Part shown: piece after piece, positions 13,625-42,354 of the stretch
Numbering within the stretch: the first letter of the stretch is position 1
Layout: every line of letters begins with the position of its first letter
Assembly (NCBI GenBank): GCA_029907475.1
Contig: JARYLU010000024.1
Coordinates: 1-43,929 of the forward strand
Direction of reading: 5' to 3'
Source of the DNA: Bacillota bacterium
Lineage (GTDB): Bacteria; Bacillota; DSM-12270; Thermacetogeniales; Thermacetogeniaceae
Length of the DNA stretch: 43,929 bases
Translations under genes and position numbers: made by a program
Notes under the pieces: generated by a model
Told to the model about the DNA's origin: nothing
Database searches by the model: none
Seen by the model: the letters and a program-made list of their open reading frames with translations, nothing else

Positions 13625-13640
13625 TGGCATGTTAATTGCA
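13625..13640 (+). promoter_or_regulatory. sigma-54 (-24/-12) promoter of the CoA-transferase/Hdr operon
   Basis: TGGCATGTTAATTGCA matches the sigma-54 consensus TGGCAC-N5-TTGCA with the invariant GG and GC exactly 10 bases apart. The start of transcription would be near 13651, about 120 bases before the first gene. A palindrome lies at enhancer distance upstream, and sigma-54 activator genes lie in the window. Confidence 0.85.
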
Positions 13641-13772
13641 CTTAAACCTAACGTGAAAGATTGCACGAAGTTTACCCGGAAGGTAGCAGATGGGAGGGAT
13701 GTTTTGAAGAAGAATTTGTAAGGATCGTATCTTAATTTTTAAACAACTTTATCAAGAAAGGTGGGTTTGATT

Positions 13773-14486
13773 GTGAAAGTTGTTTCCGTGGAGGAAGCTG
13801 TGGCTCAACTTAAGGATGGAATGACCATAATGATCGGTGGCTTTCTTGATGTTGGAATACCTTTAAAAATTGTCGAGAAACTATGCGAGACAGATGTCAA
13901 GGATTTAACCTTGATTAATACATGCGGCTCCATGGTTGGAGGCGGTTTTGGTACGGCGTACCTTTTCGCCCAGGGTAAAATTAAGAAATACATCACAAGC
14001 CACGTAGGTGTTGCTCCCGAACACTTAAATGCTTATAAAGAAGGGAAGCTCGAAGTCGAATTCTACCCCATGGGATCGTGGATCGAGAAAATTCGCGCCG
14101 GGGGAAGCGGTTTAGGCGGCGTCCTGACACCTGTGGGAGTTGAAACGCTCGTAGAAGAAGGGAAGCAGAAGGTAACCATTGATGGCAAGGAATATCTCAT
14201 CGAATTGCCGTTAAGAGCGGATATCGCTTTTATTAAAGGGTACCAGGCAGACCGGTTTGGAAATGTAAGATGCCGTTATCTCCAAAGGAATAACAATCCC
14301 ATCATGGCCTTTGCCGCAGATTATGTTGTCTGTGAGGTCAATGAATTTGTGGATGAACTTGATCCCGATCTGGTTCACATCGTCGCCCCGCTGATCGACG
14401 CACATGTAAAAGGTTACACCTTTGAAGAAGAACAGCAGATATACCGCGACCTGTGGAAGGAAAGAAAGAGGCTCAAGGCTGGTTAA
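13773..14486 (+). CDS. class I CoA-transferase subunit A (ScoA/AtoD-like)
   Basis: The GTG at 13773 (MKVVSVEEAVAQLKDGMTIM) has AGGTGGG 7 bases upstream and fits better than the GTG at 13761; this gives 237 residues. It has the family marks GGFLDVGIPLKIVEKL, GSGLGGVLTPVGVETLVEEG and PLRADIAFIKG, then LQRNNNPIMAFAADYVV. With subunit B it moves CoA from an acyl-CoA donor to an organic acid. It is the first gene after the sigma-54 promoter. The substrate (acetoacetate, succinate, butyrate or another acid) cannot be read from the sequence. Confidence 0.92.
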   Translation: MKVVSVEEAVAQLKDGMTIMIGGFLDVGIPLKIVEKLCETDVKDLTLINTCGSMVGGGFGTAYLFAQGKIKKYITSHVGVAPEHLNAYKEGKLEVEFYPMGSWIEKIRAGGSGLGGVLTPVGVETLVEEGKQKVTIDGKEYLIELPLRADIAFIKGYQADRFGNVRCRYLQRNNNPIMAFAADYVVCEVNEFVDELDPDLVHIVAPLIDAHVKGYTFEEEQQIYRDLWKERKRLKAG

Positions 14487-14552
14487 AAGTCTTTCCCAAA
14501 TCAGGAGCCAGGATTCTCTCCCTAAGTAAAGATAAAGGAGGTTAATTTACTG

Positions 14553-15218
14553 ATGGATGAACGCGAAATAATTTGCCGGCGCGCTGCAAAGGAATTGCGC
14601 GATGGAATGATTGTAAACCTGGGCTTTGGGATGCCCCTCGGTGTTGCCGATTTTATCCCGGAGGGCGTTCACGTCTGGCTGGAGACCGAAAACGGGGGCA
14701 TGGGGTACGGCGGGACCCCTACGTACGAAGAGGCCGACTGCGGTATGGCCAATGCCGGAGCCGGACCGATCACGAAATTGCCCGGAATGTCCGTTTTTGA
14801 CCTTTCGTATTCTTTCCAGTTAATTCGGGGCGGCCACGTAGATGCTACTATTCTCGGATGCCTGGAGGTCGACGAGGAGGGGAACGCCGCCAACTGGGCT
14901 CTGCCGATTTACCCCGGTGCCAACAAGTATCAACCCGGAATGGGCGGTGGAATGGATTTGATGTTCAGGGCGAAAAAAGTCATTATTGCCATGAGCCATA
15001 CCGCAAAGGGTGCTCCCAAGCTCGTCAAGAAGTGCCAATATCCAATCACTGCTCCTAAGTGCGCTCATATGGTGATTACGGAAAAGGCGGTTTTTGAATT
15101 AACCGAAAACGGTTACGTTCTAAAAGAAATCTGGCCCGGGCTCACGGTGGAGGATATTCGCAAGATTACCGAAGCTAACTTTACTGTAGCCGAAGATCTC
15201 AAAGAATATCAAATTTAA
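14553..15218 (+). CDS. class I CoA-transferase subunit B (ScoB/AtoA-like)
   Basis: 221 residues from an ATG preceded by AAGGAGG. The motif W-L-E-T-E-N-G-G-M-G-Y-G holds the Glu at residue 46, in the position of the SENG catalytic glutamate that carries the CoA thioester; Ser is replaced by Thr here. It also has GGHVDATILGCLEVDEEGN and PGMGGGMDLMFRAKKVIIAM, typical of the AtoA/ScoB side. It is the partner of the preceding gene, with a 66-base gap. It is complete and presumably active. Confidence 0.93.
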   Translation: MDEREIICRRAAKELRDGMIVNLGFGMPLGVADFIPEGVHVWLETENGGMGYGGTPTYEEADCGMANAGAGPITKLPGMSVFDLSYSFQLIRGGHVDATILGCLEVDEEGNAANWALPIYPGANKYQPGMGGGMDLMFRAKKVIIAMSHTAKGAPKLVKKCQYPITAPKCAHMVITEKAVFELTENGYVLKEIWPGLTVEDIRKITEANFTVAEDLKEYQI

Positions 15219-15310
15219 TTAAAAATTACCAGGCAAAGGGCGGGGTCTCTAGCATCTTGGGGAGATCCCCCCTCCCCCTCTGAATCCCCTTTTTAAGGAG
15301 ACGATTTTGT

Positions 15311-15898
15311 GTGCAAAAGGAACGCAGCGAAGATTTGATTGCAGATTTCTACGCAAAACTCGAGGGAACCGGGCTTGTTCAAGGTCTGGAAAAATGTATG
15401 GCTTGCGGGAAATGCGTCGGCAACTGCCCGGCGGCCGCCCTTGCCGAAACCTATAATTCCCGAAAGATTATTCGCGACGTGCTTTTTGGGAACGCAGCCC
15501 GCCTGCTTACCAGTGAAGAGATCTGGCAGTGCCTCTGGTGCAAAACGTGTTATGTTTCTTGCCCCCATGATGTTGATTATATATTGCTTGTATTGTCTCT
15601 GCGCTTTCTTGCCCTGGCGAGCGGTTATGGGCAGAAGTATGCTTTACTCTTCAAGCGGTTTGGGGAGAGATTGTATACATACGGTTTAAGTTTTGTGCCA
15701 GGTGAGAAAAGGAGGGAGCAGATCAGGGAAGCAAGGGAAAAACTTGAATTGCCTCCCCTTGTTATTGAAGAAGGTGCTCTCAAGCAACTGCAGCAGATTT
15801 TTGACGAGACCGGGGCAACGGACTTCATCGCAAAACTGGGGACCAGAGAAGAAAAACCGCTGCAGCTCACCTACAGGAGAGGAAGATCACCTTCATGA
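15311..15898 (+). CDS. HdrC-like 4Fe-4S protein (first copy)
   Basis: 195 residues; GTG start after AAGGAG. Two [4Fe-4S] motifs are visible: C29-x2-C32-x2-C35-x3-C39-P and C74-x2-C77-x2-C80-x3-C84-P, as in heterodisulfide reductase subunit C. The remainder is helical, with one hydrophobic stretch (ILLVLSLRFLALASGY) that is too short and mixed for a sure membrane anchor. It should pass electrons between HdrA flavin and the HdrB-type subunit that overlaps its stop by 4 bases. The neighbours suggest a role in acyl-CoA oxidation, not methanogenic CoM-S-S-CoB reduction. Confidence 0.9.
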   Translation: MQKERSEDLIADFYAKLEGTGLVQGLEKCMACGKCVGNCPAAALAETYNSRKIIRDVLFGNAARLLTSEEIWQCLWCKTCYVSCPHDVDYILLVLSLRFLALASGYGQKYALLFKRFGERLYTYGLSFVPGEKRREQIREAREKLELPPLVIEEGALKQLQQIFDETGATDFIAKLGTREEKPLQLTYRRGRSPS

Positions 15899-16827
15899 TT
15901 AAAGATAGCAGGGTCAGGCTTGATGTTGTAGAGAAGATCCCGGTTCCCGAAAGAGTTTTTTTCTTTCGCAGTTGCACCGGAAGTATGGAGTACCCCGGAC
16001 TTGAGAAGTCAATCAGGGAAATCACAAAGATCCTTGGTATTAAGCTGGTAGAGTCGTGGGAACAGACATGTTGTTCCGGTTATCTCATGACGTGCCAGAC
16101 TTTTGAACCGATCACTTCTCTGGCGGTTACTGCGAGAAATTTAAGCATTGCAGAAAGAGAAGGGCTTGATGTTTATACCAACTGCAACGGCTGTTTCGGC
16201 TGGATGACAGAGTTTAAGCATTTCCTCGACCATAACGGGGAAATGCGGGAAAAGGTAGATAAAGTGCTTGCGAAGATCGGGTGCACCTACCAGGGGACGG
16301 CACAAATTCGCCATTTTCAAGAGCTGTGGTACCGTCTGCGCGATCGGATCAAGGAAAAACAAGTCCGCTCGCTGGATGGGTTGCCGGTTGGTATTCATTA
16401 CGGCTGCCATTACCTGGCAAAGAAATACGACCTTATCGACGATCCCGAGTACCCCACATTTCAGGAAGACATTGTGGAAATGCTAGGCGGAAAACCTGTT
16501 TTTTACCGGGCGCGGAGAGAGTGCTGCGGAGCCGCGGTAGGTACAATGTTCACACATATGGATGATATCGCCCTTCCCCATGCTTACAACAAGCTCAAGA
16601 ATGCAAAAGAAGAGGGTGTGGAACTTCTCCTGACTGTGTGTCCGGGGTGTAATGTCCAACTGGACCGGTCGCAGATTGCTATGAAAGAGCGGGGTATGGG
16701 CGAGATCGGAATACCTGTTATTGATTTATCTCAGTTAATTGCGTGGACCTTGGGCGTTCCCGGGGAGCTGCTCGGCTTTCATATGAATTCAATTCCCGTC
16801 GTGATTCGGAAAGAAGGGAGAAAATAG
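15895..16827 (+). CDS. HdrB-like protein with two CCG domains (first copy)
   Basis: 310 residues; the ATG overlaps the HdrC stop (ATGA). It has two cysteine-rich CCG domains: FFRSCTGS, TCCSGYL and NCNGC in the first (about 25-110), and HYGCHY, ECCGA and VCPGC in the second (about 165-255). These are the Cx31-39CCx35-36CxxC motifs that ligate noncubane [4Fe-4S] clusters in HdrB. In methanogens HdrB reduces a disulfide; here the electron acceptor or donor is unknown. Compared with the second copy it has about 20 extra residues and diverges strongly, so the pair is not a recent duplication. Confidence 0.9.
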   Translation: MIKDSRVRLDVVEKIPVPERVFFFRSCTGSMEYPGLEKSIREITKILGIKLVESWEQTCCSGYLMTCQTFEPITSLAVTARNLSIAEREGLDVYTNCNGCFGWMTEFKHFLDHNGEMREKVDKVLAKIGCTYQGTAQIRHFQELWYRLRDRIKEKQVRSLDGLPVGIHYGCHYLAKKYDLIDDPEYPTFQEDIVEMLGGKPVFYRARRECCGAAVGTMFTHMDDIALPHAYNKLKNAKEEGVELLLTVCPGCNVQLDRSQIAMKERGMGEIGIPVIDLSQLIAWTLGVPGELLGFHMNSIPVVIRKEGRK

Positions 16828-16828: not shown

Positions 16829-17893
16829 GTGGAGGATAGGAGAAAGGTTCTGATTATCGGAGGCGGGCCCGCAGGAATGGAAGCAGCGTACTGTTTGGCT
16901 TGTTTTGGCTATCAGGTACTTCTTGTTGAAAGGGAAAAGTACCTGGGGGGGCGCCTTCTTCACCTCGACCGCCTGTATACCAGCATGGAAGAAGCTGCAG
17001 TTTTGCTTGAGGCCCTCAAGGCAAGGGTTAACGCTTCTCCGTTAATCGAAACATGCCTGGAAACCATTCCTGAAAACATCCAGAAAGTGAATGATGTTTT
17101 TGAGGTGACCCTTTCTCGGGAAAGTAAGAGCTGCGTCGAAAAGGTTGGTGCCGTTATTTTAGCGACCGGTGCTGCCTATTTTGATACGGAAAAATGTGCC
17201 GAGTATGGTTATGGTCGTTATGATGGGGTTTTGAACAGTTTAGATTTTGAGAAGCTGCTTCAAAGCGCCCGGGCCGGGAGAGGCCCCTTTTCTGCAGCGG
17301 GTAAGTTGCCTCAAAGAGTCGCATTTTTCCAGTGCGTGGGTTCCCGGAAGAGAGCAGGCGCGGGTAGCCAGGGCTGGCCGTACTGCTCAAAGATATGCTG
17401 CATGTACACCGCGAAGCAGGCAAGGCAGTTGAGGGAATTGCTCCCTGACAGCGAATGCTACGTTTTCTATATGGATGTCCGAGCGGCAGGCAGGGAGTAC
17501 GAAGAGTTTTTGCGGGAAACGATGGAAAAAAACCGCGTCCGGTACGTCCGGGGTCGGCCGGCGAAGGTCTTCCCGAATGAGGGCGGTTTGCTGATCCGCG
17601 CTGAAGATACCTTGATTGGGTGTCCCATTGAGCTGGAGGTTGATCTGGTTGTGCTCGCGGCGGCGCTTGAGCCTTCTTCTGAAACTGTGGAACTTGCAAG
17701 AATGCTCCAGTTGCCTACTGATGCGTATGGGTTTCTCAGGTCTTGCTCCGGGACAGAACTGTTAAAGGCAGGAGAAGGCGTCTTCTTTGCAGGGGCCTGT
17801 GAGTTTCCAAAAGGTATAGAAGAAAGCCGCATTCAGGGACAGGCCGCAGCAAGAAGCGCAGCAAGCTATTTAAACGCGCGGGGGAGTGTCTGA
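16829..17893 (+). CDS. minimal HdrA-like FAD oxidoreductase
   Basis: 354 residues; GTG start after AAGGGAG. The FAD-binding motif is VLIIGGGPAGMEAAYCLACF. The HdrA-specific cysteine block is FFQCVGSR and, about 13 residues later, PYCSKICCMYTAKQA. The C-terminus has the second FAD motif (EGVFFAGACEFPKGIEESRI). It is much shorter than methanogen HdrA (about 650) because it has no ferredoxin domains; electrons must therefore pass through the two HdrC proteins on either side. It may be the flavin hub of an HdrCB-A-CB assembly. Whether it bifurcates electrons cannot be decided from sequence. Confidence 0.9.
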   Translation: MEDRRKVLIIGGGPAGMEAAYCLACFGYQVLLVEREKYLGGRLLHLDRLYTSMEEAAVLLEALKARVNASPLIETCLETIPENIQKVNDVFEVTLSRESKSCVEKVGAVILATGAAYFDTEKCAEYGYGRYDGVLNSLDFEKLLQSARAGRGPFSAAGKLPQRVAFFQCVGSRKRAGAGSQGWPYCSKICCMYTAKQARQLRELLPDSECYVFYMDVRAAGREYEEFLRETMEKNRVRYVRGRPAKVFPNEGGLLIRAEDTLIGCPIELEVDLVVLAAALEPSSETVELARMLQLPTDAYGFLRSCSGTELLKAGEGVFFAGACEFPKGIEESRIQGQAAARSAASYLNARGSV

Positions 17894-17894
17894 G

Positions 17895-18470
17895 ATGCGG
17901 ATTTTCTTAAGCAACCGGACAGGCAGCATTCAGCGCGAGTTTCAGCATGAAATTGAAGAAAAAAGCAAGCAAAATCTTGATAGGTGCCTTGGCTGTGGAG
18001 CTTGTACAGGTGGCTGTCCCAACGTTGATTTTTTTGATTACAGTCCCAGGGAAATTATTGCAATGATCAAGCTTGGTGACAAAAAGAAGGTACTGGAAAG
18101 CGAAACGATCTGGTACTGTCTCGGTTGTTATCTTTGCGAAGAACGCTGCCCTGGGAGAATCAGTATTCCCCGTGTAATGGATAGCTGCCGGGAGATGTCT
18201 CTGGTTGAAGGTTACGAAGCTGCGAGAGAAAATATTGTTCTCTTTCACAAGCTATTTCTTACCCAGGTTGCCAGGTACGGCAGATCTCCGGAAACCCTTC
18301 TGGCGCTTCTGTTTAATTTCAAAACAAAGGATTACTTGCGTGATGCCGATCTGGGCCGGAGGATGTTTTTAAAGGGAAAAATGAAGTTATTTCCAGAGCG
18401 GGTTCGCAACCGCGAGGAGATCAGGTCTCTTTTTAAAGAGGCAGACTTCAGGGGGGTTTTACTTAAATGA
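17895..18470 (+). CDS. HdrC-like 4Fe-4S protein (second copy)
   Basis: 191 residues from the ATG at 17895, which has GGGGGAG 8 bases upstream; a GTG at 17886 overlapping the HdrA stop is the alternative. The two [4Fe-4S] motifs are CLGCGACTGGCP (about residues 31-42) and CLGCYLCEERCP (about 75-86). The rest is helical and basic. It is only distantly similar to the first HdrC. It overlaps the next hdrB-like gene by 4 bases, so it forms a second HdrC-HdrB pair. Confidence 0.9.
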   Translation: MRIFLSNRTGSIQREFQHEIEEKSKQNLDRCLGCGACTGGCPNVDFFDYSPREIIAMIKLGDKKKVLESETIWYCLGCYLCEERCPGRISIPRVMDSCREMSLVEGYEAARENIVLFHKLFLTQVARYGRSPETLLALLFNFKTKDYLRDADLGRRMFLKGKMKLFPERVRNREEIRSLFKEADFRGVLLK

Positions 18471-19339
18471 AGCTGGCTTATTATCCCGGGTGTTCTCTAC
18501 ATTCAACCGCGCAAGAGTATGATATCAGTTTAAAGCTTTGCCTGCAAAGCCTGGGTATCGAATTATCAGAAGTGCCTGATTGGAATTGCTGCGGGGCAAC
18601 GTCCGCCCACGCGCTCAATGAGAAGCTGGGTACCCTGCTGGCTGTACGTAATTTAAGTCTTGTTAAAAATATGTCACTTAACAAGATTTTTGCCCCCTGC
18701 GCTGCCTGTTACAACCGGTTAGTCACAACTCAGTACCGCTTGCAACATGAGCCTGCGCCTGATTCTGAAGATGCCTCCCTGACGAATTCAGGCGAACTCC
18801 AGGAAATCAAGGTTTTAAGCATCCTTGACCTCCTGTGCGATGAGGAGGTACAGGAGTTAATTAAAGCCCGCTTCAAGAAGTCGCTGAACGGCATTCGGGT
18901 TGCGTGCTATTACGGCTGTTTTTTGGTACGACCGACAGTTGCTATTGGTCGTTGCTCTTCTGAAAATCCAATGTACTTAGAAGACATTCTCGCTGCAGCA
19001 GGTGCGGAGGCTGTCTCCTGGGCTTATAAAACTGAATGTTGCGGTGCCGGTTTTGTCCTGCCGGAACCCCAAGTCGTCCTCAACCTGTCACGCGAAATCT
19101 TAAGAGATGCGAGGCGTTCGGGCGCAGATGTGATCGCGGTAGCATGTCCTTTGTGCCAGATGAACCTCGATACGCGTCAGGATGCAATTCGGAGGGAGTG
19201 GGACGAAGATCTTGAGATGCCGATCCTCTATTTTACGCAGCTGCTGGGGATAGCAATGGGTTTCTCCCCCCGCGCTTTAGGTCTAAAACGTCTCATGGTG
19301 AGCCCCTTTCCTGTTTTAATGCAGAGAGGAATCTCTTGA
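18467..19339 (+). CDS. HdrB-like protein with two CCG domains (second copy)
   Basis: 290 residues. The N-terminus MKLAYYPGCSLHSTAQEYD is classical HdrB. The first CCG domain has PGC, NCCGATSAH and CAACYNRL; the second has CYYGCFL, ECCGAGF and ACPLCQMNLD. All cysteines needed for two noncubane clusters are present. It is closer to canonical HdrB than the first copy. It is the last gene before a 200-base gap that holds a hairpin. Confidence 0.92.
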   Translation: MKLAYYPGCSLHSTAQEYDISLKLCLQSLGIELSEVPDWNCCGATSAHALNEKLGTLLAVRNLSLVKNMSLNKIFAPCAACYNRLVTTQYRLQHEPAPDSEDASLTNSGELQEIKVLSILDLLCDEEVQELIKARFKKSLNGIRVACYYGCFLVRPTVAIGRCSSENPMYLEDILAAAGAEAVSWAYKTECCGAGFVLPEPQVVLNLSREILRDARRSGADVIAVACPLCQMNLDTRQDAIRREWDEDLEMPILYFTQLLGIAMGFSPRALGLKRLMVSPFPVLMQRGIS

Positions 19340-19543: not shown

Positions 19544-20866
19544 GTGGCAGTTCATGAGCCTAAAACGGAAAAAAGGGTTTTTGACAATGTCCTTGTTCAA
19601 AAAGTGCTATCTTACCGCTATTTTATCTTTGTACTAATCGCAATCCCTTATTTTCTCGTCTACTTCCACAGAACCTCTACAGCTGTCGTTGCGAAGGCGC
19701 TTGTTGATGCGTTCAATGTAACACCTGCTGCGCTGGGACTTTTAGGGTCGATGTACTTTTATCCCTACGCAGCGGGACAGTTGCCGGCCGGTATCCTGGC
19801 GGACAACTGGGGCCCCAAAAAGACGGTTTCTCTGTTCCTCTTAATTGCGGCCATCGGTGCGATTGTTTTTGGTGCCGCGCCGAGTTTTGCAGTCACGGTT
19901 GTCGGTAGATTCCTTGTAGGTTTGGGTGTGGGTTTTGTTTATGTACCGGCCATGAGACTCCTTGCAGACTGGTTCCGAAGGCAGGAGTTTGCAACCATGT
20001 CTGGAATCATGCTTGCCATCGGAAACCTTGGCTCGTTATCTTCAGCCGGTCCCCTGGCCTTGATGATGGTTGCAATCGGTTGGCGCAACTCTTTTCACGT
20101 AATCGGAGCTGTAACCTTCTTGGCGGTGATCCTGTTCTTTCTCTTTATGGTGAACAAACCACAGGACAAGGGCTGGCCCAGCATTCAGGAAATCGAAGGA
20201 ACCGTTCCTGCGGCAGGTCAGAGTGTGAAGAAGTACGGGGTTGGCGAAAGCCTGAAGATGATCTTCTCGAACTGGGAGTTCAACAAGATCGGGATACTCT
20301 TGTTCTTCTTTTACGGCGGGATGATGGGATTCCAAGGGCTTTGGGCAGGTCCCTGGCTTCGGCACGTGTACGGAATGGAACCTACGCAGGCCGCAAATTA
20401 CCTTATGCTGATGGCGGTTGGCCTGGTCTTTGGGTGTCCTCTGTCTGGGATACTATCGGACAAGGTGCTTAAATCCAGGAAAAAGGTTCTTTTGTACGGG
20501 GGTTTCCTGTATACACTCTCGTATATCCCAATTGTTTTGAAAATTGACAGTTTAAGCCCGGTTATGATTGCTGTTTTGTTCTTCTACTGGGGCCTCACAG
20601 CCGGGAGTTTTGTTGTCTGTTTCGCCAATTCCAAAGAATGCTTCCCAGTGGAGCTGGCAGGTACGTCAACCGGGTCGGTCAACCTGTATATCTTCGTCGG
20701 CGGCGCAATCCACCAGCAGGTGATGGGCCTCATTATTCAGCGCTACCCTGCGATAGATGGGGTGTATCCGGCCGCGGCTTATCAGACGGCATTCGGGTTT
20801 TTGATTGCAGGGATGGCCCTTGCACTCCTCCTCTATTCAACATTTAAAGAGAAGCCACAATTTTAG
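19544..20866 (+). CDS. major facilitator superfamily transporter
   Basis: 440 residues; GTG start after GGAGGAATTT. There are twelve predicted membrane segments, beginning YFIFVLIAIPYFLVYFHRTS. The MFS motif between TM2 and TM3 reads GILADNWGPKKT, and LVGLGVGFVYVPAMRLLADW marks TM4. It resembles organophosphate/anion-type MFS carriers (sugar phosphate permease, hexuronate and related). Placed between Hdr genes and a CoA-transferase, it most likely imports the carboxylic acid that is then activated; this is inference. The substrate is unknown. Confidence 0.9.
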   Translation: MAVHEPKTEKRVFDNVLVQKVLSYRYFIFVLIAIPYFLVYFHRTSTAVVAKALVDAFNVTPAALGLLGSMYFYPYAAGQLPAGILADNWGPKKTVSLFLLIAAIGAIVFGAAPSFAVTVVGRFLVGLGVGFVYVPAMRLLADWFRRQEFATMSGIMLAIGNLGSLSSAGPLALMMVAIGWRNSFHVIGAVTFLAVILFFLFMVNKPQDKGWPSIQEIEGTVPAAGQSVKKYGVGESLKMIFSNWEFNKIGILLFFFYGGMMGFQGLWAGPWLRHVYGMEPTQAANYLMLMAVGLVFGCPLSGILSDKVLKSRKKVLLYGGFLYTLSYIPIVLKIDSLSPVMIAVLFFYWGLTAGSFVVCFANSKECFPVELAGTSTGSVNLYIFVGGAIHQQVMGLIIQRYPAIDGVYPAAAYQTAFGFLIAGMALALLLYSTFKEKPQF

Positions 20867-20906: not shown

Positions 20907-21695
20907 ATGTCTAAATTGGTCTCCTTGGAACAAGCAGCTAAACTCATCGGCAACGATCAAATCGTGGCTGTTGGTGGAAATGCCCTCCACCGAAATCCGG
21001 TTGCTCTTTGCCGGGCCGTTGCGAAGAACAAGCCGGTAGGCCTAACGGTGGTTGGCGCCGCCCCCGGTTTGGCTGCTGACATCCTGTGTGCTGCTGATTG
21101 TGTAAAGGAAATTTGGTTCGGTTTCTTCGGTTTCGAAAATGAGTTTGGTCTAGCCGCCGGGATGCGGAAAGGGGTCCAGAGCGGCAAGATTAAAGCGATG
21201 GAGGGCTCCTGAACGGCAATTATCGCCGCTCTCCGTGGGGGAGCATATGGTGTTCCGTTCATGCCGGTCGGCGGAATGTGGGGAAGCGACCTTCTGAAGA
21301 TTCGTCCCGAAATGTATCATGTAATGAAGAGTCCGTTCGACGGTAAAGAGGTGGTTTGTGTACCATCGATCCAGCCTGATTGGGCTTTAATCCACGTCCA
21401 TGAAGCTGATGAGATGGGCAATGCCCGTATTTTCGGGTGCACCTTCCAGGATGTCTTGATGAGTCGCGCTGCTAAAAGAACGATCATAACAGCCGAAAAA
21501 ATCGTTTCAACCGGTACTTTCCGTGAAAAACCTGAATTGACTTTAATTCCGCATATTTTTGTAGAAGCTGTAGTAGAAGCTCCGAAGGGTGCTGCCCCCG
21601 GTCCATGCTGGCCTGACTACCCGGCGCCAGACCGCGATGGGATGAAGGCTTACCTGGCTGCTGTAAAAGCTGATACTGTAAACGAGTGGCTCTAA
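20907..21695 (+). CDS. class I CoA-transferase subunit A (GctA/IpdA-like) with in-frame TGA at codon 102
   Basis: A 262-codon frame starting at an ATG after AAGGAGG. Codons 1-101 and 103-262 are both good family sequence in one frame: VGGNALHRNPVALCRAVAKN and GFENEFGLAAGMRKGVQSGK before, then TAIIAALRGGAYGVPFMPVG and DWALIHVHEADEMGNARIFG after. Codon 102 (21210-21212) is TGA, in M-E-G-S-stop-T-A-I-I, where a Cys would fit. The second half has no SD or start of its own near 21213. It is either a recent nonsense change or a selenocysteine codon: a 7-bp hairpin with a GTG loop starts 15 bases after the TGA. Its partner is the next gene. Confidence 0.8.
21228..21244 (+). promoter_or_regulatory. 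hairpin after in-frame TGA, SECIS-like candidate
   Basis: GCTCTCC and GGGGAGC pair over 7 bp (one T-G) around a 3-base GTG loop. The loop starts 22 bases after the TGA at 21210-21212, within the 16-37 base window described for bacterial SECIS elements, and G is among the first two loop bases. The bulged U of E. coli elements is not evident. It could be chance, since this is coding sequence. Confidence 0.35.
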
Positions 21696-21737
21696 TTTTT
21701 AAAGACCATTTTAATATTGAGTAAGGAGGAAAGGATT

Positions 21738-22460
21738 ATGGAATACGGCCCAGCTGAAATGTTGGTTGTAGCCCTGGCGCGGGAGGTCCAGAACGGGAAA
21801 ACATACTTTACGGGATTAGCGTCTCCCGTCCCGGTAACTGCCATGAAGCTGGCGCGTGCCCTGCACGCACCAGAGTCTATTTGGATTACCATTGCGGGGG
21901 GGATCGATCCCCAACCCGATCCGGCAGCAACACCGTCCACCCTGGATCAGGAGAGACTTCTCAAAGGGGTAGTAAGCTATTTCACGCTTGAAGAGGTTTT
22001 TGACCTTGCGTGCAGTGGAAGAATTGACCATGCTTTCTTGAGCTTTATCCAGATGAGCAAAAAGGGCGAAATCAACATGTCTTACGTCGGAGGAGAATAC
22101 GATAAACCGAAGGTCCGGCTGCCCGGGGGCGCGGGAAGCGCGACCCTGACGCCGACAGTAAAGCAGGTTTTAATCTGGCGTACCGCACACGATGCACGTT
22201 CCCTTGTTGAGGAGGTAGAGTTCTGCACGACGAAGGGCAATATATACAAGGTGTTCACTCCGTTATCCACTTTTATTATGAAAGATGGAGAGCTGCAATT
22301 AGAAAGCATCCACCCGTATACCACCCTGGACGAGGTTAAGAAGAACACCGGCTGGGAAATTACGCAAACAGATGTACCTGTAACTTCGCCTCCAACTGAA
22401 GATGAGCTGGCAGCATTACAAAAAGTAGATCCAAATAAGATATACCTGGCAGAATTTTAA
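21738..22460 (+). CDS. class I CoA-transferase subunit B (GctB/IpdB-like)
   Basis: 240 residues from the ATG at 21738, which has AAGGAGG at good distance. It begins MEYGPAEMLVVALAREVQNG and shows the IpdB/GctB pattern F-T-G-L-A-S-P-V-P-V-T-A-M-K-L-A, FLSFIQMSKKGEINMSYVGG, RLPGGAGSATLTP and FCTTKGNIYKVFTPLSTFIM. In this subfamily the classic catalytic Glu is often absent, and some members (IpdAB) open rings of CoA esters as hydrolases and do not transfer CoA; I cannot place this pair on either side. It is the last gene before the terminator. Confidence 0.9.
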   Translation: MEYGPAEMLVVALAREVQNGKTYFTGLASPVPVTAMKLARALHAPESIWITIAGGIDPQPDPAATPSTLDQERLLKGVVSYFTLEEVFDLACSGRIDHAFLSFIQMSKKGEINMSYVGGEYDKPKVRLPGGAGSATLTPTVKQVLIWRTAHDARSLVEEVEFCTTKGNIYKVFTPLSTFIMKDGELQLESIHPYTTLDEVKKNTGWEITQTDVPVTSPPTEDELAALQKVDPNKIYLAEF

Positions 22461-22585: not shown

Positions 22586-22636
22586 TAGTGGAACATCTCT
22601 TAGAACGTGAGTTTTGTGGGGAGAGGGGGGGAAAAC

Positions 22637-24412
22637 TTGAAGTGCGAGATTGACCTTACGAACCTGAAAGCAAACGAGATTATGCAAACTGAATTTTTAA
22701 CAACACTTGAAAATACACGAATAGCTGATATTTTCAACGATCTGGTTAACAGCGACAAGGAAGAATTGATTGTCCTGGATGGGGAGAAGCAACCGTGCGG
22801 CATTGTCACGAGAAAGGTGGTGCTGCGAAAACTTAAAAAAGGCGTAGACCCCGAGAGCCCTGTATGCGGGATTATGCAGCAGCCGTTAATCACCGTACAG
22901 AGCGATGACAGCGTTTACTTTGTGCGCGAGGTTATGCGCAAGCACCAAATCGGACGGGTCCCGGTTGTTAATAAGGCAGGCAAAGTAGTCGGTCTTGTCA
23001 CCGCAGTTGCGATTTGCAACGGTTTTTCTGATAAGCTTGAGGAAGTAGGCAGCCACCTTCAGGCGATAATCGATTCCATTGGTGTCGCGACCCTTGTTTT
23101 TAACAGGTTTTGCCGCCTTGTTTACTGGAATCAAATGGCCAAGCTGATTTATAAAGATAAAATCAAGCTACACGTCCGCTGTGAAGAACTTTTTGAATCG
23201 AAAGTGCTCAAGGAAATTCTTGAGACAGGAAAAACCATAAAAAATATTTACGAAGTGAACCAAGACAGGCATTTAGTAAAAAATGCAAGCCCTATCATTA
23301 AACAGGGAAAGGCCATTGGAGTTGTTTGTACCATAGAAGATGTAACGAAGGTTGTTAACTTAATGCATAAGGCAGAGGTAATCAACGAAAAAGAGGAACT
23401 GATTGAAAGGCCTGGATCGGGAAAGGGCAGCTTGCGAACCTGCCCTAAGCCTCCCTGCTTTGAGGCTTTTGAGAGCAGGAACCCAAATGCCAATAAATTA
23501 GTTAAACTGGCAAAAAAGGTAGCCAAAGTTGACGTAACTGTTTTAATTAGAGGTGAAACCGGAACCGGTAAAGAGCTTATGGCGCGTTCATTACACCTGG
23601 CAAGCTCCCGCAAAAATAACCCCTTTGTCATTGTGGACTGCAGTGCGGTGCCGGAAAAGCTTTTTGAGACCGAGCTGTTTGGTTACGAGGCCGGTGCTTT
23701 TACTGGGGCCTCTAAAAAGGGCAAAAAAGGCAAATTGGAATTAGCGGATAAAGGAACCCTATTCCTTGATGAGATCGGGGAGCTTCCTCTTGAGATGCAG
23801 TGCAAGCTTTTACGCGTTATTCAGGAAAAAGAGTTTTACAGGGTTGGGGGATTAAAGCCAATTAAAGTAGATGTCCGCTTCCTTGCTGCAACCAACAGAG
23901 ATCTCGAAGAAATGGTAAAAGAGGGGACTTTTCGTGAAGATTTATTTTACCGCCTAAATGTGATTACCTTGGAGCTACCAAGTTTGAGGGAAAGATCTGA
24001 AGATTTGGCGGATCTTATTTTCGAATTTTTTAATCATTTTAGTGATATCTACAAAATACCGATTAGTATTATTGAAAAAGGCGTTATTTCATCTCTGGCA
24101 AATTACGATTGGCCTGGAAATTACCGGGAGCTAAGGAATGTTACCGAAAGGCTTGTACTCCTTTCGGAAAATGGTTGTATTAAAATGGAACATGTTCCAG
24201 ATGTGATAAAAAATCTGACTCGCGGAGAAAAAAGTGAAAGAAAGAATAAAAGTGTTTATTGTTTAGAGGAATATATTGAGCAAAAAGAAAGGGAAGAAAT
24301 TATTAAGGCCTTAGAAAGGCATGCAAACAACAAAGCTCAAGCAGCGCGTGCTCTGAAAATTCCTCGCAGCACTTTGTATTACAAGATGAAGGCATTAAAT
24401 ATTAATATATAG
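22637..24412 (+). CDS. sigma-54-dependent transcriptional activator with CBS pair and PAS domain
   Basis: 591 residues from the TTG at 22637, which sits 5 bases after GGGGGGG; a GTG at 22607 is possible. Residues about 20-130 are a CBS pair ([33 protein letters not shown]). Residues about 135-240 are PAS-like ([20 protein letters not shown]). The AAA+ domain has Walker A GETGTGKE (about 306), GAFTGA sigma-54 contact loop (about 352) and Walker [12 protein letters not shown]. The C-terminal Fis-type HTH is [20 protein letters not shown]. It would activate sigma-54 promoters such as those at 13.6, 24.7 and 26.0 kb; the ligand of the CBS/PAS sensor is unknown, adenine nucleotides or a CoA ester being reasonable guesses. 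Confidence 0.95.
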
Positions 24413-24422: not shown

Positions 24423-24440
24423 TTGTGCAAAGATGCACAA
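24423..24440. promoter_or_regulatory. perfect palindrome TTGTGCA-N4-TGCACAA (copy 1)
   Basis: Two perfect 7-base arms with an AAGA centre lie 11 bases after the activator stop. The same palindrome with another 4-base centre occurs at 42250-42267 between two sigma-54 promoters. Here it is about 280 bases upstream of the -24/-12 element at 24702. It is a candidate enhancer site. Confidence 0.6.
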
Positions 24441-24478: not shown

Positions 24479-24701
24479 CTTAAGCCCCCGTTTATCTTTA
24501 GACCTGTCTTCTACTCCCAGGCGTTGGCCAGCTCCGGAGGGCGGACTCCCTTATTGGTTCTTTCGAATTCCCAGTGATGTCAAAGAGTGTACAAGATCCC
24601 GACATATTGTTTAATACTGCTGCTTCAACCTCCGCCAGGTCTTTGAGGGCAAGGATAAATCGAGGCATATTTTCAGGGCAGACCAAAGAGCTGATTCGAT
24701 T
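24479..24701. other. intergenic stretch, no supportable gene
   Basis: A minus-strand frame (24498-24707) reads in part MPRFILALKDLAEVEAAVLN and looks mildly protein-like, but it has no SD and no recognised family, and it ends in low-quality sequence. It may be a remnant. The stretch also contains half-sites reminiscent of the GTGTCA repeats at 25.84 kb (around 24575-24590), which is weak evidence. Confidence 0.3.
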
Positions 24702-24716
24702 TGGCATATTTCTTGC
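24702..24716 (+). promoter_or_regulatory. sigma-54 (-24/-12) promoter upstream of the CoaD-like gene
   Basis: TGGCATATTTCTTGC has GG and GC 10 bases apart and matches TGGCAY-N5-TTGC. Transcription would start near 24728, about 150 bases before the GTG of the CoaD-like gene. An AAGGAGGG at 24729-24736 follows without a useful ORF. Confidence 0.78.
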
Positions 24717-24876
24717 GTATAGTAAATTAAGGAGGGTTCACAGGTGGGACTTGGTGAATAAAATCACCATTTACCTCTAAAAAACTCCCCGGCTCATCCC
24801 ATGACTAAAAATTTTCCTGATGTCTGGAAGTGAAAATGAAATGGGCCGGGGGACAGTCCCCCAGGAGGAAAAGGTA

Positions 24877-25386
24877 GTGGTAGTAACAATTTTTCCGGGG
24901 CGTTTCGATCCGGTAACGTATGGGCACTTAGATATTATTATTCGGGCCAGCTCTTTGTTCAATCAAGTAATCGTGGCAGTCAGACCGGTGCCTGAACAAA
25001 AGCTGCTTTTCAGTTTAAATGAACGCATAAAAATGTTGGAACATTTGACACATGAATTGCCTAATATCCAGGTGCTGCCGTGCTGCGAGGCCATCCTTGA
25101 TTTTGCCCGGAAACACCATGCACGGATCATAATTAGAGGGTTACGCAGTTTCAACGACTTTGAAATGGAATTTGAGCGCGCAAAATTAAACAAAGAGCTG
25201 GCTCCGGAAATTGAGACAATTTTTATTACATGCCGGCCCGAACTCTTTTATACCTCAGAAATGGTTAAGGAAATTGCTGCTTTTGGAGGGGATATTGGTC
25301 ATCTTGTGCCACCATATATTGCAAGCCGCGTTTTTGAAAGATTATCTTTAGCGTCGGAGCAAAAAGCTTTAAAAGTAATGGGATAA
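24877..25386 (+). CDS. divergent CoaD-like (phosphopantetheine adenylyltransferase family) nucleotidyltransferase
   Basis: The GTG at 24877 has AGGAGG 8 bases upstream and gives 169 residues, the usual CoaD length; an upstream ATG at 24820 would add 19 odd residues. The T/HxGH fold is clear: TIFPGRFDPVTYGHLDIIIR, later IIIRGLRSFNDFEMEFERAK and YTSEMVKEIAAFGGDI. Several CoaD signature residues differ: PG[ST]FDP is PGRFDP, TNGH is TYGH, Lys42 (E. coli numbering) aligns with Gln, and ISSSxVKE is YTSEMVKE. CoaD makes dephospho-CoA from phosphopantetheine and ATP; this copy may be a specialised paralog. A sigma-54 promoter upstream is unusual for a housekeeping CoA gene. Confidence 0.82.
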   Translation: MVVTIFPGRFDPVTYGHLDIIIRASSLFNQVIVAVRPVPEQKLLFSLNERIKMLEHLTHELPNIQVLPCCEAILDFARKHHARIIIRGLRSFNDFEMEFERAKLNKELAPEIETIFITCRPELFYTSEMVKEIAAFGGDIGHLVPPYIASRVFERLSLASEQKALKVMG

Positions 25387-25961: not shown

Positions 25962-25976
25962 TGGCATGTTTTTTGC
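25962..25976 (+). promoter_or_regulatory. sigma-54 (-24/-12) promoter of the enoyl-CoA isomerase gene
   Basis: TGGCATGTTTTTTGC, followed by T, is a near-consensus -24/-12 element with GG-N10-GC. The start would be near 25988, giving a leader of about 135 bases. Confidence 0.87.
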
Positions 25977-26088: not shown

Positions 26089-26124
26089 AATTATAATTTA
26101 ATTATAAAAAAAGGAGTGGTTTTT

Positions 26125-26907
26125 GTGGCCTGGGAAACGCTATTGTTTGAAAAGGTTGACGAGATCGGGGTAATCACTCTAAACCGCCCGGATAAGATGA
26201 ACACCATGACCCCCCAGTTTCTCAAAGAATATGAGGAAGTCGTAACGGCGGTAGCAGATGACCCCGAAGTCAGGGTTGTTGTCTTAAAGGCAAACGGCAG
26301 GGCTTTCAGTGCGGGAGGAGATTTCGAACTTCTGAAGATGCTTGATACTCCTGTGAGGGCCCGGGCCGCGATCAGGTCTCTGGGGAGTACAATTGCAAAA
26401 ATATACAACATGAGCAAGCCCTGGATTGCTGCAGTTGATGGAGCCGCTGCAGGGGGCGGTGCGAACCTTGCCTTATCCTGCGATTTTGTTTTTGCTTCCG
26501 AAAAGGCGCGGTTTGGACAGGCCTTTATTAATATTGGTCTCGTGCCAGACACGGGTGGGCTCTGGACCCTTGCAAGGCTGACGGGAATCACACGCGCTAA
26601 AGAGCTTGCCATGACCGGACGTCTCATTGATGCAGAAGAGGCAGCGCGCTATGGCATGGTTTTGAAGGTGGTTCCCTCGGATCAGTTATACGACGAGGTA
26701 ATGGCTTTTGCCAGGCAGCTCGCGGAGAAGGCCCCCATTGCAATTGGTTTTATCAAGCAGCTAGCCAACAGGTTGAGCGATATTTCGCTGGAAACCTACT
26801 TCGATCTTGAAGCCGATTACATGGCGATTGCGCTGCGGACCGAAGACCATAAAGAAGGGTTAGCGGCGTTTACTGAAAAAAGGAAACCAGAATTCAAAGG
26901 TAAGTAG
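26125..26907 (+). CDS. enoyl-CoA hydratase/isomerase family protein, PaaG-like
   Basis: 260 residues from the GTG at 26125, 8 bases after AAGGAG. The crotonase fold shows NRPDKMNTMTPQFLKEYEEV, the oxyanion-hole segments GRAFSAGGDFELL and DGAAAGGGANLALSCDF, and FGQAFINIGLVPDTGG. The two glutamates of true enoyl-CoA hydratases are replaced (GGGCELA to GGGANLA, QPE to QAF), while the Asp of V-P-D-x-G-G is kept as in PaaG. So a double-bond isomerase or PaaG-type activity is more likely than hydration. It is a single gene under a sigma-54 promoter and ends at a shared terminator. Confidence 0.88.
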   Translation: MAWETLLFEKVDEIGVITLNRPDKMNTMTPQFLKEYEEVVTAVADDPEVRVVVLKANGRAFSAGGDFELLKMLDTPVRARAAIRSLGSTIAKIYNMSKPWIAAVDGAAAGGGANLALSCDFVFASEKARFGQAFINIGLVPDTGGLWTLARLTGITRAKELAMTGRLIDAEEAARYGMVLKVVPSDQLYDEVMAFARQLAEKAPIAIGFIKQLANRLSDISLETYFDLEADYMAIALRTEDHKEGLAAFTEKRKPEFKGK

Positions 26908-39837: not shown

Positions 39838-41295
39838 TTGTCTGGATTTCTGTTTACGGTGGGGGAGGGGGTTTTCATAAGTTTAAAACCGGTTAAAAGA
39901 ATTTATTATCTTCACGGTTCACATTCAGAGAAGAAGAGGTTTTCAGCTGGTACAAGCAGCCCTCTGGATTTGCTGGAGGCATCACATGATGGTTTATTTA
40001 TTTTCGACTGTCAGGGACAGGTTATCTTAGCCGTGGGCTTTACCATAGAAAATCAAACAGATTCTTTGTTCCGGGACCTGGTTCACGAGGTGGTCAAATC
40101 TGGTAAAAGAGTCAGTACTTTGTTGCAGGACTCAGGACAGACCTATTTGATTACTGCGAATCCTGTTTTTAATCTGCGCCATAACGTTTCCCACGTAGTA
40201 TGCAACATTCGCAACCTGGAAGAACTGAATTCGCTTGAAAGAGAGATTCAGCACCTCACTCTCCTGGAAAAGAGACAGTTTAACTTGAGCGAATGGATTG
40301 AAGAGAGAGAAGAGCTTAAGGAAATTGTGAGCCGGAGTGCCGCGATGCGGCGCGTTCTAATATCAGCTCTGCGAGTTGCTCAGGTTGATTCTACGGTTTT
40401 AATCTTAGGAGAATCCGGGGTTGGCAAGGATATGCTGGCGCGACTCATTCACCAAGCTGGAAAGCGCGGGGACCGTCCTTTTGTTAAGATTTCTTGCGGT
40501 GCGATCCCTGAAAATCTTTTAGAATCGGAGTTATTTGGCTACGAAAGCGGAGCCTTCACGGGGGCGCGCAAAGAGGGAAAACCTGGTCTTTTTGAACAAG
40601 CCGCCGATGGAACAGTTTTTCTTGATGAAATAGGCGAACTCCCCTTAACTCTGCAGGTTAAACTGCTTAATGTTTTGCAGGATCGTAATTTTCTAAGGGT
40701 CGGAGGAGTGAAACCGGTTCCGACAACCGCTCGGGTGGTTGCAGCAACAAACAGGGATTTAGAGCTCCAAGTAAAGGAGGGAAATTTTCGTGCCGATCTT
40801 TTTTACCGTCTCAATGTAATCCCTTTGCTGATTCCTCCCCTGCGAGAGCGCCGGGGTGATCTTTTGCCTCTTATCAATCATTTTCTTGAACTTTTTTGCG
40901 AGCGTCACGGTTTTAAGCGAAGCCTTGCACCGGCAGCCTTAAACTACCTGATCAAGTATGACTGGCCGGGTAACGTCCGGGAGCTTCAAAATGTCATGGA
41001 GTTTTTAGTTGTCATGACACCGGATGAGATTATTGATGTAGAGCATCTTCCAGAGAAGATTGTGGAGAGCATTCGGGGAGCAGAATTCACTGTCAGGTCA
41101 CTGGCCCCGGAAAATGTTCGACTTAAAGACGCTCTGGAGGAGTACGAGAGGGACTTGATCAACCGCGCCCTGGAGGGACATGAAACACTTCGGGAAGCCG
41201 CGGAAAGCTTGGGAATTGATCTCTCGACCCTTACAAGAAAAAGACAAAAATACGGCTTAATCAGGTATAAAGATCATTATGAAAGTTGCAACTAA
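39838..41295 (+). CDS. sigma-54-dependent transcriptional activator with PAS-like sensor
   Basis: Up to 485 residues. The N-terminal about 150 residues are a PAS-like sensor (LLEASHDGLFIFDCQGQVIL) and a linker coil. The AAA+ domain has Walker A GESGVGKD (about 191), the GAFTGA loop (about 238) and [11 protein letters not shown]. The C-terminal HTH is Fis-like (HETLREAAESLGIDLSTLTR). The start is unclear: TTG 39838 and GTG 39859 lack an SD, while a very strong GGGGGAGGGGG stands 5 bases before an in-frame ATA at 39877. It probably drives the sigma-54 promoters at 42.2-42.35 kb; that pairing is inferred from proximity. Confidence 0.94.
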   Translation: MSGFLFTVGEGVFISLKPVKRIYYLHGSHSEKKRFSAGTSSPLDLLEASHDGLFIFDCQGQVILAVGFTIENQTDSLFRDLVHEVVKSGKRVSTLLQDSGQTYLITANPVFNLRHNVSHVVCNIRNLEELNSLEREIQHLTLLEKRQFNLSEWIEEREELKEIVSRSAAMRRVLISALRVAQVDSTVLILGESGVGKDMLARLIHQAGKRGDRPFVKISCGAIPENLLESELFGYESGAFTGARKEGKPGLFEQAADGTVFLDEIGELPLTLQVKLLNVLQDRNFLRVGGVKPVPTTARVVAATNRDLELQVKEGNFRADLFYRLNVIPLLIPPLRERRGDLLPLINHFLELFCERHGFKRSLAPAALNYLIKYDWPGNVRELQNVMEFLVVMTPDEIIDVEHLPEKIVESIRGAEFTVRSLAPENVRLKDALEEYERDLINRALEGHETLREAAESLGIDLSTLTRKRQKYGLIRYKDHYESCN

Positions 41296-41309
41296 TTTAA
41301 AATAGAGTT

Positions 41310-41343: not shown

Positions 41344-41370
41344 GGTTTTAGCTTTAATTTTCCAGGAGGC

Positions 41371-41973
41371 TCAACCGGCTTTTATAAGGGGTTTTCCCAG
41401 CGGGAGAATGGTTTTCTTGAAGACGGTATTCAAAACTACTCCCCCGGCCAGGTAGATGCCGATGATACCTAAGAAAAGAAGGAACCAACCGGCAACGGGG
41501 GCACCGATATGGTGGCCGATAATCCCAAGGTCCATTAGTGCCACGGCCCAGATCGCTATATCTGCAAAGATCAGACCCAGGAATAAGATCGACGATCCTA
41601 CAAGGTATGCGGGAGTAAGTAAAGTTGTAGCAATTGCTAAAACCAGCCAGGCATATCCGTCAATCTGGGCTGCAAAAGGCAGTCCTGTCACACCAAGTAG
41701 ATACTTAGTAACTGATTCCAGTCCCCCGGTAAACATGAAAAACGCTGCAAAGTAAGTGAAAACGTTCCCACCTGCAATGTTTTTATCTTTAAGTTCGATA
41801 ACCGCCGTGATGATTTGAGCTATAAAGCCTCCGAATTGCCAGCAGGCGAGAATCGGGAGGGCTTCGTGGGGGACCCTACCCGTTAGCAGCGCGAACAAGG
41901 TAAAGCATGCAATGGCCAGACCAATCAACCCTGCCGGTGTTGGATTCGCAAAACTGTGCTCGTGCTGAGACAT
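41371..41973 (-). CDS. acetate uptake transporter, GPR1/FUN34/YaaH (SatP) family
   Basis: 200 residues with six membrane helices. The family signature N-P-[AT]-P-x-G-L appears as FANPTPAGLIGLAIACFTLF near the N-terminus, and FTYFAAFFMFTGG in the middle. These proteins are hexameric channels or proton-coupled carriers for acetate, succinate or other short acids. It is transcribed from a strong sigma-54 promoter at 42187, divergent from the CaiB-like gene, so acid uptake and CoA activation share a control region. Confidence 0.93.
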   Translation of the reverse strand: MSQHEHSFANPTPAGLIGLAIACFTLFALLTGRVPHEALPILACWQFGGFIAQIITAVIELKDKNIAGGNVFTYFAAFFMFTGGLESVTKYLLGVTGLPFAAQIDGYAWLVLAIATTLLTPAYLVGSSILFLGLIFADIAIWAVALMDLGIIGHHIGAPVAGWFLLFLGIIGIYLAGGVVLNTVFKKTILPLGKPLIKAG

Positions 41974-42122: not shown

Positions 42123-42142
42123 AGGTTGTTCCAGAACAACCT
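42123..42142. promoter_or_regulatory. perfect inverted repeat AGGTTGTT-N4-AACAACCT
   Basis: Two 8-base arms surround CCAG. The repeat lies about 20-40 bases downstream of the expected start of the yaaH-like transcript, so it could be a repressor operator or a hairpin in the mRNA leader. No T-run follows on the minus strand. Confidence 0.5.
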
Positions 42143-42172
42143 GCAAGTTTCTTCATGCTTATTTTTTAAGAC

Positions 42173-42187
42173 GCAAAAAGTGTGCCA
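42173..42187 (-). promoter_or_regulatory. sigma-54 (-24/-12) promoter of the yaaH-like gene
   Basis: Read on the minus strand, TGGCACACTTTTTGC matches the consensus TGGCAC-N5-TTGC with GG-N10-GC. The start would be near 42161, with a leader of about 190 bases. Confidence 0.88.
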
Positions 42188-42249
42188 CTGAATGTCTCAT
42201 CAACTCAGAAGGGTGGTAGAAAGTTAAAGTATAGATCGAATCCCTGAAT

Positions 42250-42267
42250 TTGTGCACAAATGCACAA
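42250..42267. promoter_or_regulatory. perfect palindrome TTGTGCA-N4-TGCACAA (copy 2), shared enhancer site
   Basis: The centre is about 97 bases upstream of the yaaH-like start and about 107 bases upstream of the CaiB-like start, so it is placed to serve both sigma-54 promoters. It has the same arms as the palindrome at 24423-24440. A degenerate second copy follows at 42283-42300. Confidence 0.7.
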
Positions 42268-42339
42268 TTTTCACGCAAAACAGTGTGATTATTTGCACAA
42301 GAACTTAATAAGAACTGCGAAACATCCTTCCTTGCTCAC

Positions 42340-42354
42340 TGGCACATTTTTTGC
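42340..42354 (+). promoter_or_regulatory. sigma-54 (-24/-12) promoter of the CaiB-like gene
   Basis: TGGCACATTTTTTGC is an excellent -24/-12 element (GG-N10-GC). The start would be near 42366, giving a leader of about 200 bases. Confidence 0.9.

Follow-up and report, generated by a model that had tools for sequence, protein, structure and literature searches.

Sigma-54 regulons described in the Clostridiales are controlled by one-component enhancer-binding proteins (EBPs) with PAS or CBS domains, which act on promoters of the -24/-12 consensus TTGGCATNNNNNTTGCT through TGT/ACA boxes located mostly 100-250 bp upstream (Nie et al., 2019; PMC6615313, as far as the accessible part of that paper goes). 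The acid/coenzyme A (CoA) targets given there include the YctR operon crt-gntT-caiB-bcd-etfAB and the LeuR operon hadAIBC-acdB-etfBA, and the AhcR, CrbR, and XcgR operons contain cotX or cotY, here taken as CoA-transferase genes, which the accessible paper text does not spell out (PMC6615313). In this work we analyzed a stretch of 43,929 nt (contig JARYLU010000024.1 of assembly GCA_029907475.1, a Bacillota bacterium of the family Thermacetogeniaceae; hereafter the window), in which five sigma-54 promoter words precede predicted carboxylate-uptake and CoA-ester genes and one operon contains an in-frame UGA, a predicted selenocysteine (Sec) codon, in a CoA-transferase-like alpha subunit (alpha 2). 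The window shares with the Clostridiales regulons the -24/-12 consensus and one-component EBPs. Since acid/CoA operons are already present in the EBP table, the carboxylate/CoA theme of the regulon is not new; no hdr gene, coaD, or Sec CoA-transferase-like gene is named among the 39 EBP groups of Table 1 in the accessible part of PMC6615313, whereas the window has hdr-like genes, a coaD, and a predicted gene of the last kind. The novelty lies in the Hdr/Sec operon and in an additional CoaD that is apparently inducible; together they would link the supply of CoA to the use of acids.

Three described enzymes on the CoA-transferase fold are closest to alpha 2 and its partner beta 2 (the Sec pair). 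Glutaconate CoA-transferase GctAB provides the closest solved alpha subunit (GctA, 4.9e-37) and differs by Gln at the Sec column and by keeping the catalytic Glu in beta (PMC7756340). The 3-methylglutaconyl-CoA decarboxylase AibA/AibB, whose Cys56 replaces the transferase Glu (PMC7756340), provides the closest solved beta subunit (AibB, ~1e-32); AibB and beta 2 both lack the Glu of glutaconate CoA-transferase, with Ile in beta 2 in place of Cys56 and Gly of AibA at the alpha column occupied by Sec. The steroid ring-cleaving hydrolase IpdAB performs retro-Claisen hydrolysis (PMC6678751, accessible part); its alpha subunit aligns over query residues 3-238, and it differs by Glu where alpha 2 has Sec, by a more distant beta (1.7e-6), and by its gene neighborhood. 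With bacterial selenoprotein families alpha 2 has in common the in-frame UGA, a downstream hairpin, Cys homologs, and the Sec machinery; the 119 families in Table 1 of PMC13188914 include no CoA-transferase family. No NCBIfam model reached its cut-off with the alpha 2 protein, and a literature search by title or abstract opening, covering open-licence papers only, showed no selenocysteine CoA-transferase among the papers listed. Judged by sequence, alpha 2 appears to belong to an undescribed family of selenoproteins built on the CoA-transferase fold; such a likely new family raises the question of selenium chemistry on acyl-CoA.

A first-pass annotation of the window had claimed five words of the form TGGCAY-N5-TTGC (GG-N10-GC), and all five are exact and intergenic: TGGCATGTTAATTGC at 13625..13639 (+) before the CoA-transferase/Hdr operon, and further words at 24702..24716 (+) before the second CoaD gene, 25962..25976 (+) before a crotonase gene, 42173..42187 (-) before the gene of a YaaH-type carrier, and 42340..42354 (+) before a CaiB gene. 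By our gene list genes cover 87% of the window, and the remaining 13% holds 5/5 exact words; the words with one mismatch are all inside genes (8/8). When the window was dinucleotide-shuffled 200 times, the exact word occurred 0.11 times on average and twice at most, compared to five times in the real window. A whole-genome scan, which the annotation had suggested as a check, was run with the exact word and gave 18 matches in the 3.01-Mb genome vs. 5 for the reversed control word; five of the 18 lie on this 44-kb contig, which is 1.5% of the genome (binomial P 5e-6, or 9e-5 if one match is spent on choosing the window). A looser word, TGG-N10-TGC, was dropped as it showed no excess over chance (25 vs. 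22.6 expected), thus only the full motif is informative. The annotation had named the lack of rpoN as an argument against sigma-54 control; the genome has one rpoN match (PF04552, 203 bits) and six strong sigma-54 activators, two of which are in the window.

Conservation in relatives, on which the first-pass reading had also been made to depend, was examined in a sister species of the same genus (G001), in another genus of the same family (G015), and in a distant genome (G022); the genome of the window is referred to as G000. Exact words stand before three of the same gene sets in G001, namely the CoA-transferase operon (L125:3173, -), CoaD (L083:8789, -), and CaiB (L082:11436, +), and before two in G015, where two divergent words lie between YaaH and CaiB and adjoin an EBP2 relative (L085; the YaaH site at L085:1823, -). 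The whole G001 genome holds 34 exact words vs. 4 reversed ones. In G022 (L088:1-9237, -) an EBP gene and an exact word are followed in a row by relatives of CaiB, crotonase, acyl-CoA dehydrogenase, and YaaH, the genes that are scattered in the window.

The two sigma-54 activators reported in the first-pass annotation were both recovered at more than 220 bits for PF00158. EBP1 (22607..24412, +) combines a CBS pair, an AAA+ sigma-54 domain with GAFTGA, and a Fis-type helix-turn-helix (HTH) domain, and is PrdR-like: the PrdR model NF041552 is its best NCBIfam model, with 566.7 bits below the cut-off of 795. EBP2 (39838..41295, +) is an AAA+ sigma-54 activator with GAFTGA and an HTH_50/Fis-type HTH domain; we take HTH_50 to be linked with TyrR. 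Two kinds of box were found near these genes. The EBP2-linked box TTGTGCA-N4-TGCACAA occurs twice in perfect form in the genome, both times in the window, at 24423..24440 (+) upstream of the CoaD promoter and at 42250..42267 (+) between the divergent YaaH and CaiB promoters; with up to two mismatches it has seven sites in the genome vs. none for the control. It lies within 400 bp upstream of three of the five window promoters (80, 90, and 279 bp), the other two having only weak EBP1-like boxes, and it is found at two of three promoters in G001 (perfect before the CoA-transferase operon, one mismatch before CaiB) and at 2/2 in G015 (two mismatches). In G000, G001, and G015 the box and the EBP2 gene are close to each other, and at eight of the 13 other sigma-54 words of G000 that were examined no site was better than four mismatches (0/8). 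One EBP2-type site with two mismatches (C7:44686) was set aside, as it follows a sigma-54 word by ~220 bp instead of preceding it.

The EBP1 box, TGTCA-N6-TGACA, is clearest outside the window. An EBP1 relative (43% identity) in genome G053 is followed closely by three copies 20 bp apart (0, 0, and 1 mismatch), which precede the CoA-transferase/Hdr operon; in G001 one exact copy and one with two mismatches precede the same operon. The candidates in the window all have two mismatches: a pair 21 bp apart at 13491..13506 (+; weak alone, shuffle p ~0.15) and 13512..13527 (+), TGTCA-N6-GTACA at 24578..24593 (+), with the same deviation before CoaD in G001, and one starting at 25844. Both boxes have a TGT-to-ACA spacing of 10 bp, in agreement with the 10-12 bp that PMC6615313 gives for PrdR and for 14 further EBP groups. 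The idea of one regulon in the first-pass annotation thus survives in part: sigma-54 control, conservation in relatives, and the CoA/carboxylic-acid theme stand, and the single regulon does not, with two different boxes, each near a different EBP, and neither covering all five promoters. This last point leads us to prefer two activators whose targets overlap to a single regulon.

The first-pass annotation made no mention of an in-frame UGA inside the 13625 operon, and the program-made open reading frame (ORF) list splits the gene in two. A TGA at 21210..21212 (+) is the sole interruption of the alpha 2 gene (20907..21695, +; UGA at the same codon in homologs), and we predict it to encode Sec102; ordinary gene calling reads UGA as stop and will split such Sec genes. 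The same codon is UGA in the sister species G001 (89% identity) and in G053 (62%). A genome scan with conserved peptides added seven homologs, six with TGA and one with TGT (Cys) in Peptococcaceae BICA1-7, so that the initial set had UGA in nine of ten sequences. A scan of 398 genomes of the phylum found 37 genomes with a match at 1e-40, in 44 rows, 14 of them with TGA; 30 of the 44 rows, including all 14 TGA rows, were examined at the Sec column, where every TGA was located, and the remaining 14 rows have no stop. Among the 37 tree sequences (including that of the window) the column holds Sec in 20, Asn in 6, Cys in 4 (L134, L150, L151, and L153), Glu in 4, and Gln, Ser, and Gly in one each; Trp is not found. 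The BICA1-7 Cys row is nested within the Sec clade and looks like a Sec-to-Cys change; a Desulfovibrionaceae row is also inside this clade.

Fifteen bases after the UGA there is a hairpin of six pairs like a Sec insertion sequence (SECIS), GCTCTC-CGTGG-GGGAGC, at 21228..21244 (+). In nine sequences all 54 hairpin cells are paired; none of 500 shuffles reached the covariation score, the paired share, or the number of cells with changes on both sides, and 23/500 reached the further pair types. When the hairpin partner was slid by 1-3 columns the pairing fell to 32-65%. Both covarying pairs are formed between third codon positions, hence the protein sequence does not force the pairing. Among 17 UGA sequences, 102/102 cells are paired with the loop codon CGT in all, and in the four Cys homologs 11/24 cells are paired. 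The genome encodes tRNA-Sec with SelA and SelB beside it, as well as a formate dehydrogenase FdhA with the Sec motif UHAP, and tRNA-Sec was found in all 20 UGA genomes.

Three distant alpha homologs (L152 in G289, L154 in G376, and L157 in G247) have UGA at the same column in the motif HTU-P, with their own hairpins that are shifted and unlike in sequence. They may form another Sec subfamily, and in two of the three the beta motif differs.

The alignment suggests an active-site placement of Sec102. Among solved structures alpha 2 matches GctA, IpdA, and AibA, and Sec102 falls on a Glu of IpdA in structure 6co6 that is mutated to Ala in 6coj. We take this Glu to be Glu105, with a catalytic role. 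The beta subunits carry IAGG, ITGG, or ITGA at the position of the transferase Glu in 10/10 loci, and further UGA loci have IAGA, LSDG, ITGS, or IMGS there (by eye); four neighboring ordinary pairs have TEGG in beta and Asn at the Sec column in alpha. Thus the Sec pair lacks the catalytic Glu in beta that marks class I CoA-transferases, and its clade has Sec or Cys where IpdAB has Glu in alpha. Since the beta Glu is missing, AibA/AibB is a decarboxylase, and IpdAB is a retro-Claisen hydrolase, it is unlikely that the Sec pair is a transferase. The pair has Hdr-like genes as neighbors in G000, G001, G053, and loci L130, L135, and L136, and none is present within the stretches covered for L131, L132, L133, and L134; Hdr coupling is therefore possible and not required.

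Taken together, we consider it likely (probability of about 0.74) that all five words function as sigma-54 promoters for carboxylate-uptake and CoA-ester genes, that two activators with overlapping targets, EBP1 and EBP2, drive these genes, and that the 13625 operon encodes a Sec-containing alpha subunit. The promoters, the boxes, the conserved UGA, the hairpin, and the Sec machinery are supported by comparison across genomes; the pairing of each EBP with its box, the extent of the operon, the reaction, and the substrate are inferred. In the mechanism we propose, a substrate signal would activate the two one-component EBPs, EBP1 (PrdR-like) acting via TGTCA-N6-TGACA and EBP2 via TTGTGCA-N4-TGCACAA on overlapping targets; sigma-54 RNA polymerase would then make the carriers, the CoA-transferases, and the extra CoaD, and the acids would be imported and then activated. 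The 13625 operon would contribute its MFS carrier, an ordinary CoA-transferase, a flavoprotein with two HdrBC-like modules, and the CoA-transferase-fold pair bearing Sec. The latter may carry out a non-transferase step on the CoA ester, which could be a C-C cleavage or a decarboxylation of the kind known from IpdAB or AibAB, or could involve an acyl-selenoester and be coupled to the Hdr proteins. With somewhat less assurance, we lean towards the view that catalysis has moved between subunits, the beta Glu being gone and Sec standing at the alpha site of the IpdA Glu, and that with the HdrABC-like carriers found in part of the hosts the pair performs an undescribed Sec-dependent acyl-CoA step (cleavage, decarboxylation, or redox-coupled acyl transfer) switched by sigma-54 via a PrdR-like activator. 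A regulator of the PrdR kind is already tied to a selenoenzyme, proline reductase.

A number of observations weigh against this reading. For the promoters, AG replaces GG in the region of the G001 crotonase promoter, which holds no exact word, G001 has no YaaH at the CaiB locus, and no exact word was found before the CaiB homologs of G004, G011, and one of the two in G015. For the activators, each box leaves some of the five promoters uncovered: no EBP2 box (at least five mismatches) stands before 13625, before 25962, or before CoaD in G001, and this box has at least four mismatches at all five sites examined in G053, L130, L135, and G022; the EBP1 boxes of the window, with their two mismatches, are weak alone (shuffle p 0.085-0.145), two unrelated sigma-54 sites match as well, and the boxes of L130 and L135 are no better than three mismatches. 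A gap of ~200 bp precedes the MFS gene, and a terminator scan gave 21 sites vs. 18.3 in shuffles and did not locate the transcript end, so that a single transcript for the 13625 operon is not established. For the Sec pair, the number of hairpin pairs changed on both sides (2) was reached by 157/500 shuffles, the Cys homolog L134 keeps five of six hairpin pairs, and lone-sequence folds lack the hairpin in 3/17 (L144, L146, and L147). tRNA-Sec is also present in 14 of 17 genomes without the UGA, and for this reason it is required and not telling. The AlphaFold2 models of alpha 2 and beta 2 were poor (predicted local distance difference test scores of 49 and 50.5) and were not used, so the placement of Sec in the active site depends on the alignment of sequences.

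These points bear on several other explanations. Chance occurrence of the GG-N10-GC words would agree with some of the 18 genome-wide words being inside genes (by eye) and with the five reversed words, which show that such a word does arise by chance; the shuffle mean of 0.11 vs. five, the intergenic location of 5/5, and the exact words before orthologous genes in relatives make it hardly credible here. A single activator for all five promoters, as proposed in the first-pass annotation, could be EBP2, whose box stands before CoaD and YaaH/CaiB in the window and before the CoA-transferase operon in G001, most of the genes when taken across the genus; the single sigma-54 word in front of the G022 gene row points the same way. 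The EBP2 box is missing at two of the five window promoters, however, and the CoA-transferase operon has the second box in G053 and G001, beside an EBP1 relative in G053. A single EBP2 box serving all five promoters was tested and failed, and we regard one activator as improbable. Two separate neighboring regulons, with EBP1 controlling the CoA-transferase operon, CoaD, and crotonase and EBP2 controlling YaaH and CaiB, have a better though still doubtful chance: in the G001 draft EBP1 and EBP2 are encoded on separate contigs, and G015 keeps EBP2, YaaH, and CaiB with a best EBP1 match of only 38%. Against such a division the EBP2 boxes cross the two sets (CoaD in the window and the CoA-transferase operon in G001), and overlapping targets of two activators remain our preferred explanation.

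With regard to the Sec pair, the in-frame UGA might be a pseudogene stop, a sequencing error, or tryptophan readthrough, and frame-broken genes are indeed found at 2688-7694 in the same window. This is very improbable in view of UGA at the same codon in 20 of the 37 sequences, with Cys in four and Trp in none, the covariation at third codon positions, and the use of UGA as the normal stop codon of four genes in the same operon. The more serious question is whether the pair is still a CoA-transferase in which a Sec acyl-selenoester replaces the glutamyl intermediate. Its fold and operon context speak for this, and an ordinary pair nearby in G000, G001, G053, L130, L135, and L136 indicates that several transferases per cluster are usual. 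On the other side, these clusters already hold a complete transferase, beta 2 lacks the transferase Glu in 10/10, and the closest solved beta comes from the decarboxylase AibA/AibB. We therefore hold a Sec-dependent transferase to be a tentative alternative, and a non-transferase step on the CoA ester is preferred.

The genes behind the five promoters are as follows. The 13625 operon begins with CoA-transferase alpha 1 (13761..14486, +; AtoD-like, PF01144 164.7 bits, TIGR02429 above and NF007394 below cut-off) and beta 1 (14553..15218, +; ENGG with the transferase Glu, TIGR02428 249.5 bits, cut-off 243.55). Five genes with Hdr models below cut-off follow: HdrC-like 4Fe-4S protein 1 (15311..15898, +), HdrB-like CCG protein 1 (15895..16827, +), an HdrA-like flavin adenine dinucleotide protein (16829..17893, +) that matches part of the HdrA models, HdrC-like protein 2 (17886..18470, +), and HdrB-like CCG protein 2 (18467..19339, +). 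The MFS transporter (19544..20866, +; PF07690) scored below cut-off with all substrate models, and alpha 2 is followed by beta 2 (21717..22460, +), with IAGG in place of the catalytic Glu. The CoaD-like label of the first-pass annotation proved correct: the gene at 24820..25386 (+), a phosphopantetheine adenylyltransferase, passes the CoaD cut-off (TIGR01510, 168 bits, cut-off 103) and is the second copy in the genome, the other, on contig C4, scoring higher (205 bits). The supposed PaaG-like isomerase (26116..26907, +) is better described as a generic crotonase-family protein (PF00378), with 210.9 bits vs. the PaaG cut-off of 345. The YaaH-type membrane carrier (41371..41973, -) can be kept as a marginal assignment (PF01184, 26.0 bits, cut-off 25), and the CaiB-type family III CoA-transferase is at 42574..43854 (+; PF02515, 338 bits).

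Sigma-54 words were also noted elsewhere. A partial census of the 13 other exact words of the genome found them upstream of formate dehydrogenase, the NiFe hydrogenase small subunit, a chemotaxis receptor, a PAS-HD protein, and a GH57/glycosyltransferase gene. The first-pass statement that the glycogen genes lack such words holds for exact words in the window, and it fails on another contig, where an exact word precedes DUF4912 and the GH57/glycosyltransferase gene. The formate dehydrogenase gene (L094:1823-4327, -) has its in-frame UGA in the UHAP motif and an exact word at 4398 in front. Two exact words on separate contigs (L095:3925, -, and L096:3733, -) have alike upstream sequence and long ATCA repeats directly after them, and precede the chemotaxis receptor and PAS-HD genes; they are possible phase-variable promoters. 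In G001 an exact word (L125:3399-3413, +) is divergent from the CoA-transferase promoter across a perfect EBP2 box, with no obvious gene downstream. Within the window, the GG-N11-GC word TGGCACGTTTTTTTGC (25680-25790, -) reads leftwards into a nested inverted repeat (by eye) and then a T-rich stretch with no evident gene; the word (at 25775) exceeds the normal sigma-54 spacing by one base and was left out of the promoter count, and the region is possibly a decayed promoter or a small RNA. An Rfam scan of the window gave only two matches, both below gathering scores. Three minus-strand genes, for a RACo-type activator (2688-4537), a DUF1638 protein (5390-6086), and what is probably a UroD-type methyltransferase (6340-7694), are each broken into two ORFs that lie in different frames. 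The breaks are not in-frame UGA codons and point to decay or assembly errors. The left end of the window (35-2379) encodes a DUF1670 protein and an AbiEii-type nucleotidyltransferase.

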